48,307 nucleotides of DNA, taken from positions 1-48,307 of IMG/VR virus record IMGVR_UViG_3300021559_000056. The stretch is one strand, 5' to 3'. A program made the position numbers and the translations under genes. This DNA is from a virus. Positions 4,697 to 48,307 of the stretch are shown here, in pieces (the first letter of the stretch is position 1; each line of letters opens with the position of its first letter). The notes beneath the pieces are model-generated. The model was not told the DNA's origin, searched no databases, and saw only the letters and a program-made list of their open reading frames with translations.

Positions 4697-4812
4697 CACT
4701 TCCTCCTTTGAACTACCGGCCCCCGCTCTCGCTTAGTCAGTGGCCGCAAATCGCCTTCGTCGTACCAAACGTAGAACGTCAGGCCGATAGCTTTGAGTAG
4801 GCGTTTAGTCAC
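4696..4812 (-). CDS. Very small basic protein (38 residues)
   Basis: GTG 4812 overlaps the stop of the replication-initiator-like gene and its own stop precedes the next ATG, so it is translationally coupled. Reads VTKRLLKAIGLTFYVWYDEG and ends in a Lys/Arg-rich tail containing the next gene's ribosome site. Function unknown. Confidence 0.45.
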   Translation of the reverse strand: MTKRLLKAIGLTFYVWYDEGDLRPLTKRERGPVVQRRK

Positions 4813-5366
4813 CGGCGAACCTCTGGGCCAGTCCCGGCATGAATCGCCACCTGAATATCGTGCTCGCCGGAAACTCGCTTCATCATCGCAAGGAATTTTC
4901 TTTGCGCTTCTTTTTGTTCTTCAATGGAAAGGGAGGGGGACGCGTTCGGTTTGTGAACGCGCTTTCTCTTACCTTTCTCCTGACCTTTAAAGGACAGTTC
5001 GGGCGCACTGGGTTGCGCAGGTGGGGCGCATTCCATTGCGCAGGTACTTGCTTCAGATTGCGCAGGGGCAATCTTTGCCGTGCGCAAAGTTTGCGCCCCT
5101 ATCCATTGCTCCACTTGCGGAATTGAATACCTATTAGACCGGCCGCGAATCTCCGTCGTGCGGAGTTCTCCGTTGTTCTCAAGTGCCCTTAATGCGTACT
5201 GAACCTCACGGCGGGACAGTCGGCACTCAAGGCATATCATGTTGACGGACGGCCACGAATCACGGCCTTCACGATTGGCGTGCGATGCGATGGAAAGTAA
5301 AACGAGGCGGGAACCTAATCGGGCTTCTGACTTCTCTAATACCCAGGTAACGGCTTGCCAACTCAC
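4809..5366 (-). CDS. Replication-initiator-like helix-turn-helix protein
   Basis: 185 residues from GTG 5366, chosen because GAGGAGAG lies just upstream and the product then starts VSWQAVTWVLEKSEA, as in phage helix-turn-helix replication proteins. Residues about 5–70 form a winged helix (ASHANREGRDSWPSVNMIC, then the recognition-helix region CRLSRREVQYALRAL and a wing). A low-complexity linker and a basic segment follow. By family analogy it may bind the origin and load host replication proteins; no helicase or polymerase gene is present nearby. It has its own promoter and a structured leader. Confidence 0.65.
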   Translation of the reverse strand: MSWQAVTWVLEKSEARLGSRLVLLSIASHANREGRDSWPSVNMICLECRLSRREVQYALRALENNGELRTTEIRGRSNRYSIPQVEQWIGAQTLRTAKIAPAQSEASTCAMECAPPAQPSAPELSFKGQEKGKRKRVHKPNASPSLSIEEQKEAQRKFLAMMKRVSGEHDIQVAIHAGTGPEVRR

Positions 5367-5376
5367 CAAGGCTCTC

Positions 5377-5417
5377 CTCGCACGAGAGATGAGGCCGGAT
5401 AGTGCGAGTACCCGGCC
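5377..5417 (-). promoter_or_regulatory. Pseudoknot-capable 5' leader covering the ribosome site
   Basis: On the minus strand two perfect stems interlock: GGCCGG (5417–5412) pairs with CCGGCC (5398–5393), and CTCGCAC (5408–5402) pairs with GTGCGAG (5383–5377). The order 1-2-1'-2' is that of an H-type pseudoknot. The last arm shares three bases with the Shine-Dalgarno GAGGAGAG (5379–5372) of the HTH gene, so folding would hide it. Regulation by a protein or by folding is inferred, not shown. Confidence 0.55.
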
Positions 5418-5457
5418 CCCGTGACCAAAAGAAACTACGCTGTGTTCAGGCCATCTC

Positions 5458-5485
5458 ATAATACAACTCCCGAGTAAGAACGCAA
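5458..5485 (-). promoter_or_regulatory. Sigma70-like promoter for the HTH gene
   Basis: TTGCGT (5485–5480), 16-base spacer, TATTAT (5463–5458). The -10 matches 5 of 6 consensus bases. Transcription would start near 5451, giving an untranslated leader of about 85 bases that contains the pseudoknot. It lies in the 174-base gap between the methyltransferase and HTH genes, one of the few real gaps in the early region. Confidence 0.5.
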
Positions 5486-47545: not shown

Positions 47546-48036
47546 CGTCCTTCCTCCGTTTCGCGCGCCCGCCGCTCACGTCCGATTTCTATCCGGCATT
47601 GAAAGCAGGTTTTCGGTCGCCACCTACCGCTCGCGATGTGTTTATCATGGCGTTTCTGCATCTTGATTCGGAAGCGTTCGTGCCGCTCGATTTGAGCAAA
47701 GATACTTTCGCGCTTCATTTCGTGCCCTCCGTTTCGCGCGGGGCCAGCGCAGCCCGCCCGGCAAACAATATCTTCAGCAAGATGACAGGAGCGGCACAAC
47801 CAAACAACCTCGAACCTTTTGGAGTAGTCTTTGTGGTGAGCTTCCGGCTTGCAGACAAGTCCGCATTTCGTGCAATGGTCGGGACGAAACATCCCGCGAT
47901 AACGTATTGCTTTGTATATCGCACGGCGCGCCCTATGCGCTTCACGGTTTCTTACTTTCTCATTCCTGCGATGAATCGCTATTCTTTCAGCGTTAGACTT
48001 CCTCCAAGCTCGGTTGTATTCCGTTGTGTTCATCAC
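47542..48036 (-). CDS. HNH endonuclease, fused in frame to zinc-ribbon gene (right allele)
   Basis: 164 residues from GTG 48036 (ATG 48033 is next to it). CTKCG at 55–59, HHKDY at 67–71 and CRSCH at 81–85 are the HNH/treble-clef core of small phage HNH proteins. After residue 90 the frame passes through the shared repeat in a frame different from the left allele and enters the zinc-ribbon gene at its Met (position 47718, residue 107). Either a fusion protein or two products are made. Homing endonuclease activity is expected from the family. Confidence 0.7.
   Translation of the reverse strand: MMNTTEYNRAWRKSNAERIAIHRRNEKVRNREAHRARRAIYKAIRYRGMFRPDHCTKCGLVCKPEAHHKDYSKRFEVVWLCRSCHLAEDIVCRAGCAGPARNGGHEMKRESIFAQIERHERFRIKMQKRHDKHIASGRWRPKTCFQCRIEIGRERRARETEEGR
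47645..47758. repeat. Left half of terminal redundancy, unit 2 (equals 1–114)
   Basis: Exact copy of positions 1–114. Left of it (47542–47644) lies the rest of the small zinc-ribbon gene that is cut off at the window start. Right of it the sequence changes to the HNH cassette. Confidence 0.95.
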
Positions 48037-48307
48037 GGTTTAGAACTCTCCTCACGCACCTGTGGTGCAGCCCGCTCTGGTAAGCGCATTCTAGTTCGCA
48101 CGAACTCGATAATCTCCTCTCCCTCTTGATTCGTAAACTCCATGCCAATCATTGACTCAACTGCGCGCCGCACGATGTTCTGCGTTCGTATCTTGGGCAC
48201 CTGTGGTGCAGCTAATGTGAAGCGGCCCTTGAGCGCACGGATTGCTTCGTTAATTTCTACTGTGCCATATTTCTTCCTGAATTCGCGATGACCTTCTTCG
48301 CAGGGAG
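48033..48307 (-). CDS. Gene g, right allele (3' part only, longer C-terminus)
   Basis: The window ends inside the gene. In frame it reads PCEEGHREFRKKYGTVEINE and continues as in the left copy up to LAAPQV, then has 47 extra codons (PKIRTQNIVRRAVESMIGME and onward) before a second AAPQV and the end REESSKP. The added segment is a charged helix-loop, flanked by the 13-base repeat. This is the longer allele of the gene at 627–1817. Confidence 0.75.
   Translation of the reverse strand, partial: PCEEGHREFRKKYGTVEINEAIRALKGRFTLAAPQVPKIRTQNIVRRAVESMIGMEFTNQEGEEIIEFVRTRMRLPERAAPQVREESSKP
48056..48068. repeat. GCACCTGTGGTGC motif, copy 2
   Basis: Second copy of the linker dyad. The 25 bases 48047–48071 match 638–662 exactly, including the GAGGAG ribosome site for the next gene. 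It lies 141 bases (47 codons) from copy 3. Confidence 0.85.
48197..48209. repeat. GCACCTGTGGTGC motif, copy 3
   Basis: Third copy. Its right flank matches the bases right of copy 1 (to 757). Copies 2 and 3 are direct repeats bounding the 141-base insert. Confidence 0.85.
48197..48307. repeat. Right half of terminal redundancy, unit 2 (equals 647–757)
   Basis: Exact copy of positions 647–757, running to the last base of the window. Reading on from 48307 to 758 closes the circle. Confidence 0.95.

Follow-up and report, generated by a model that had tools for sequence, protein, structure and literature searches.

The leader of the replication-initiator gene studied here most probably functions as a cis-acting RNA element that gates translation (we put this at about 80%), in which two adjacent hairpins carry mutually complementary loops and occlude the ribosome site. 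The element has a defined two-hairpin structure that is preserved by compensatory changes on the gene strand, lies at a constant position at the Shine-Dalgarno, and occurs in front of both replication initiators and endonucleases. It belongs to a structured RNA family without an Rfam match, strongly supported by covariation, and links replication initiators to homing endonucleases, gene classes for which no shared control is known.

The initiator gene and the anatomy of its leader

The window, that is, the whole stretch of DNA analysed, is the IMG/VR virus record IMGVR_UViG_3300021559_000056 (48,307 nt). Its ends share identical blocks (1–114 = 47645–47758 and 647–757 = 48197–48307), while the middle of the two end regions (1–757 and 47645–48307) differs, as though a circular genome, or one that is circularly permuted, had been closed over a variable region. 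The gene following the leader on the minus strand encodes a lambda O-like initiator, as indicated by the O-like profiles (PHROG phrog_1032, 3e-15; phrog_391, 2e-13), the HTH_36 domain (Pfam, 1.6e-9), and the in-gene repeats with a 22–23-bp period. These iteron-like repeats recall lambda O origins, and in-gene repeats of different sequence also appear to be present in two relatives (L001 and L002). Since relatives at 58–60% identity align with a conserved N-terminus, MSWQAVTWVLE, the start was assigned to GTG 5366 and not to ATG 5459. The extended initiator from ATG 5459 was disfavoured by the MSWQ/MSVQ starts of the relatives and by the stop codon located immediately 5′ of the initiator start in contig L054. 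The features are as follows:

5458–5485, minus strand: putative promoter, −35 TTGCGT (5485–5480), 16-nt spacer, −10 TATTAT (5463–5458)
5409–5417, minus strand: H1 5′ arm GGCCGGGTA, 9-bp helix, two-sided changes in 6 of 9 pairs
5402–5408, minus strand: H1 loop CTCGCAC, contributing the first arm of S2 (the loop-loop/pseudoknot helix), 100% of cells paired
5393–5401, minus strand: H1 3′ arm TATCCGGCC, pairs with the H1 5′ arm, covariation
5389–5392, minus strand: linker TCAT, 1–8 nt in relatives, unconserved
5384–5388, minus strand: H2 5′ arm CTCTC, two-sided changes in all five H2 pairs
5377–5383, minus strand: H2 loop GTGCGAG, second arm of S2, covariation
5374–5379, minus strand: Shine-Dalgarno GAGGAG, lying partly in loop 2 and partly in the 3′ arm of H2, 7 nt before GTG 5366
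5372–5376, minus strand: H2 3′ arm GAGAG, covariation
4809–5366, minus strand: lambda O-like replication initiator, GTG start, 185 aa, HTH_36
5012–5066, no strand assigned: iteron-like repeats TTGCGCAGG, 22–23-bp spacing within the initiator gene, possible origin

An earlier note on this DNA had described two interlocking perfect stems of 6 and 7 bp in the order 1-2-1′-2′, the last arm overlapping the ribosome site, and this description proved exact on the minus strand. Stem 1 is formed by GGCCGG (5417–5412) with CCGGCC (5398–5393) and stem 2 by CTCGCAC (5408–5402) with GTGCGAG (5383–5377), whose second arm overlaps the Shine-Dalgarno at 5379–5374 (anti-SD duplex of −8.9 kcal/mol). The two helices, both of which covary, and loops of 3, 3, and 9 nt make up an H-type pseudoknot. 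Two points had been overlooked: stem 1 reaches 9 bp with one G-U pair (5417–5409/5401–5393), whereby the loop of the extended stem (H1) is exactly the 7-nt stem-2 arm, and a second hairpin, H2, is formed by CTCTC/GAGAG (5388–5384/5376–5372), its whole loop being the other stem-2 arm. The full element (5417–5372, minus strand) thus comprises the adjoining hairpins H1 and H2, with stems of 9 and 5 bp, each closed by a 7-nt loop that is complementary to the other over its full length, in the order GGCCGGGTA(CTCGCAC)TATCCGGCC, TCAT linker, CTCTC(GTGCGAG)GAGAG, CCTTG, and GTG. It is present in a single copy in the window.

Such an arrangement rarely occurs by chance. When the 100-nt leader was dinucleotide-shuffled 2000 times, a 6/7-bp H-type pseudoknot of the same geometry turned up twice; the complete two-hairpin element was found in 1 of 20,000 shuffled leaders and in none of 60 shuffled windows. 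A sequence-free descriptor (two adjacent hairpins with equal, fully complementary loops of 6–7 nt) run over 1.65 Mb detected, besides opposite-strand mirror images, the element and just two unrelated GC-rich chance matches.

The −10/−35 pair proposed in front of the leader is also present on the minus strand, though its 8 of 12 consensus matches are at chance level when taken alone, as each strand has about four pairs of this quality per kb; as standalone evidence it was rejected, being useful only alongside the relatives. In 11 of 23 members, a near-consensus promoter (10–12 of 12 matches) ends 16–64 nt upstream of H1, consequently the element is an ordinary 5′ leader. Since the weak promoter-like site of the window occupies the same position as the strong promoters of the relatives, a transcript start near 5451 is plausible, if only that, from the sequence.

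A leader family shared by initiator and endonuclease genes

Leaders of O-like relatives were scanned for the same geometry, which yielded contigs L047, L053, and L054, where entirely different letters follow the same plan at the same position, and a descriptor scan added L043. A pattern was then derived from the consensus of the first members with the variable loop bases left free. It gave 37 matches in viral contigs, while a slightly stricter version gave at least 118 in bacterial and archaeal genomes (one genome per species). The matches were judged by a free-loop criterion, namely that the four or five variable loop bases are the exact reverse complement of the bases just before GGAG. This pairing was found in 24 of the 37 viral matches (18 of 30 unique sequences) versus 0 of 118 among the bacterial and archaeal matches listed. 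One of the 18 unique positives (L089), in which the loop pairs and H2 is missing, is doubtful and may be a chance match; four model matches without loop pairing (L292, L293, L295, and L296) were rejected as chance.

The family was also recovered by a model, R2, built from eight endonuclease-type leaders, the window and all initiator leaders having been left out of training. R2 recovered six initiator-type leaders or relatives (E 1e-9 to 4e-4), and in the window the element ranked first with 26.7 bits (E 1.8e-4), the next match scoring 10.9 bits. The members found here amount to about 28 different sequences from about 25 phage contigs, all confirmed ones being metagenomic contigs. Searching the window and 12 member loci against Rfam 15 at gathering scores gave no match to the element, nor did relaxed searches at E up to 10 (four loci) or up to 5 (nine loci); elsewhere in those loci the searches picked up nothing beyond tRNA, a single group I intron, and chance matches. 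The intron lies in L101 (7265–7476, 59.5 bits), about 1.3 kb before the second element copy of that contig. No description of this element was found in the literature searched, which lay largely outside subscription papers. The leader element, therefore, apparently belongs to an undescribed family lacking an Rfam counterpart.

The genes following the element fall into two main classes. O-like initiators are found in the window, L047, L053, L054, L071, and L076 (six cases), while the endonucleases include Endonuclease_7 (L072), MUG113 (L077), HNH (L078 and L081), endonuclease VII-like (L100 and L103), and GIY-YIG or NUMOD3 proteins (L101, L284, L286, L287, and L294). Some downstream genes gave no significant family match, and 5 of the 22 aligned members (L043, L080, L079, L093, and L098) have no clearly assigned gene directly downstream, which was counted against the interpretation. 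In two of these, L043 (1202–880, minus strand) and L080 (6341–6490), what follows the element is a stretch of 82% identity in which no clear start of an ORF is seen (CCTCGACTCC..CCAATCGAGG) and which, judged by its sequence, may be either the remnant of a gene or a non-coding RNA of greater length. Where a gene could be identified, the element lies directly at its Shine-Dalgarno. Start codons are mostly GTG or TTG in the initiator group and ATG in most endonuclease members; homology to initiators in L047 starts with an ACG codon (1498), 8 nt past the final base of S2. Proteins of the phage records AF396866 (Mx8 p19) and PQ885450, whose annotation is replication initiation protein or DnaD-like helicase loader, match the MUG113 (GIY-YIG-like) endonuclease of L077, which, as far as protein similarity can tell, is a second link of initiators with homing-type domains.

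Several phages carry more than one copy. The 109-kb phage G046 has five, each before an endonuclease-type ORF and each with a different loop; three of the ORFs gave significant endonuclease family matches, while one MUG113 and one HNH-like ORF were recognized only by eye. Other phages have two or three copies. That the loops differ among copies within one genome argues for pairing in cis. In four G046 leaders (L283, L284, L285, and L286), an extra hairpin (e.g. CTCAGG..CCTGAG) followed by a CTAGAGT-like sequence is located about 30 nt upstream of H1, and such a hairpin is present in several endonuclease leaders.

Close DNA relatives of the initiator leader were not found in the viral contigs or phage records searched, a search that may have missed records very similar to the window. 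Named phages whose initiators or endonucleases are related, Mx8, Pam5, and cyanophage PP among them, lacked the element at the loci examined. Most initiator homologues at 36–60% identity also lack it, which was counted against the best explanation. The structural relative G005 carries a different replication gene, and L040, a near-identical contig, seems to stop short of the leader.

Compensatory changes and the selected strand

For the covariation analysis, 22 members were aligned by structure with the linkers removed (alignment A4). Most of them had been chosen by pairing, thus the following counts lean towards structure, while the free-loop test is independent of this choice: 98.9% of the 454 pair cells (three helices, 22 sequences) are paired, and two-sided compensatory changes were found in 17 of 21 pairs, amounting to 113 cells against a shuffle mean of 33.4. 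Slid-alignment controls gave 45–57% pairing. S2 is paired in every cell, with two-sided changes in six of its seven pairs. The compensating changes in related phages that were to be expected if the two interlocking stems are real were accordingly found in both of them. In L289, a side hairpin interrupts H1 and the lower stem re-forms. On the gene strand, 21 G-U pairs were counted versus a single A-C, which indicated that selection acts on the sense RNA.

Conserved positions all fall within the three helices, and the linker varies both in length (1–8 nt) and in sequence. At the upper end of H1, GGUG/CAC is conserved beyond what pairing alone needs; part of this conservation was imposed by the search pattern, and among the members found without it GGUG/CAC occurs in five of seven, the window and L101 being compensated exceptions. 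The window departs from the family consensus with compensation at two sites (GUG/CAC to GUA/UAU and CC/GG to CU/AG).

Proposed translation control, rival readings, and known systems

The fold suggests how the ribosome site could be hidden. Loop 2 of the family ends in the Shine-Dalgarno GG, which would pair with the conserved CC in loop 1, and the AGG that follows, supplied by the 3′ arm of H2, would pair with CCU in the 5′ arm of that hairpin; the ribosome site may thus be taken up by H2 or by an H-type pseudoknot with loop 1. A single molecule probably does not contain H1, H2, and the complete S2 at the same time, because the linker is only 1–8 nt; this exclusivity is suggested by A-form geometry, in which such a linker should not be able to close stacked helices of 9, 7, and 5 bp. 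The leader would thus switch between H1+H2 and H1+S2. While H1 is stable (−12 to −20 kcal/mol), H2 (about 0 to −7 kcal/mol) and the S2 stacks (−9 to −15 kcal/mol before the pseudoknot penalty) are of the same order and compete. As regards a possible RNA thermometer, in which melting at growth temperatures would release the Shine-Dalgarno, H2 is weak, but S2 and H1 are stable. Translation gating is proposed because part of the Shine-Dalgarno would be masked in either state: translation would be kept low or conditional, and the replication starter or DNA-cutting enzyme would be made late or sparingly. The fold may be opened by a shared factor from the phage or the host, or simply by access of the ribosome. 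Since its conservation exceeds the pairing need, GGUG/CAC suggests a protein or ribosome contact and is the likeliest candidate recognition site. The conserved unpaired pocket of metabolite riboswitches was not found, and the lack of any conserved unpaired position argues against a small-molecule pocket, although one within paired positions would be compatible with the data. Considerably more tentative, and in our view rather doubtful, is the proposal that one common trans-acting phage or host factor reads GGUG/CAC and jointly unlocks initiators and homing endonucleases, which would form a translation-level phage regulon.

The pseudoknot could, alternatively, be activating: H2 alone would mask the site (OFF), while pseudoknot formation by the H1 loop would dissolve H2, free AGG(G), and possibly recruit 30S/S1 (ON), as has been put forward for timP and tisB. 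The conservation of both H2 and S2, their probable exclusivity given the short linkers, the unpaired AGG(G) in the S2 state, and the precedent of timP (PMC11228461) are in line with this reading; however, S2 itself pairs the Shine-Dalgarno GG in nearly every member, and in timP the pseudoknot is formed with a partner other than the Shine-Dalgarno, the latter being located in a stem-loop of its own, SL4 (PMC11228461). We therefore regard an activating role as unlikely.

The earlier note had suggested that RNA folding gates translation of the initiator, perhaps through the initiator protein itself. The first part stood, the occluding fold being strongly supported by the compensatory changes, but the second found no support. 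Binding of the initiator to its own leader RNA would have a precedent in T4 gp32 (PMC3014915) and agrees with the element preceding six initiator genes, but unrelated endonuclease genes carry the same element, five copies occur in one phage, and most initiator homologues are devoid of it, which makes autoregulation very improbable. Just as little probability was given to a DNA-level role, that is, to operator, recombination, or origin sites: inverted repeats of 9–12 bp around a 6–7-bp spacer resemble such sites and the initiator gene contains iteron-like repeats, but the G-U to A-C ratio of 21:1 on the gene strand and the fixed position at the Shine-Dalgarno downstream of promoters speak against it. 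Least credible of all is that the leader merely contains chance hairpins in GC-rich sequence or codes for a 31-residue extension of the initiator from ATG 5459, for although the frame is open back to 5525 and this ATG has a usable Shine-Dalgarno (−6.9 kcal/mol), the former is contradicted by the covariation, the shuffles, and the difference in loop pairing between viral and bacterial/archaeal matches (the latter among the matches listed), and the latter by the stop codon in L054 and the MSWQ/MSVQ starts.

The preferred reading, an occluding leader with two competing folds, has partial parallels. In the IncI-alpha plasmid ColIb-P9, pairing of a loop with downstream sequence controls translation of the replication initiator gene repZ, and the switch is set by an antisense RNA and leader-peptide translation; loop-to-downstream pairing and the type of gene controlled are common to both systems. 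The toxin mRNAs timP (Salmonella) and tisB require a pseudoknot for translation, which is the ON state in timP (PMC11228461, PMC7708055), and they share with our element alternative leader folds and a loop-based pseudoknot controlling initiation, although the timP pseudoknot does not itself contain the Shine-Dalgarno (PMC11228461). Complementary loops containing the ribosome site represent a small, testable design for bistable translation control. Gene 32 of T4, T2, and RB69 has an autoregulatory pseudoknot about 67 nt upstream that binds the gene's own product (PMC3014915); it is likewise an H-type pseudoknot in a phage replication-gene leader, whereas here a pseudoknot arm overlaps the Shine-Dalgarno and the element is common to unrelated genes. 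T4-type homing endonuclease genes (I-TevI/II/III, segB, and Aeh1 mobE) have ribosome-site-sequestering hairpins, which are described as single and as present only on transcripts from upstream promoters, since the late promoter excludes the structure (PMC2988022, PMC3014915). The endonuclease members of the family are similar in that RNA structure pairs the endonuclease Shine-Dalgarno, while in the window it precedes an initiator gene. Unlike the T4-type leaders, the present ones have a pair of hairpins whose loops are complementary throughout, belong to a covarying family, and also occur before replication initiators; furthermore, a late promoter omitting part of the structure was not seen, as promoter-like sites end 16–64 nt upstream of H1, so every transcript would carry the element. 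With this family, the long-standing problem of how mobile endonucleases are kept silent in phages becomes directly testable beyond T4.
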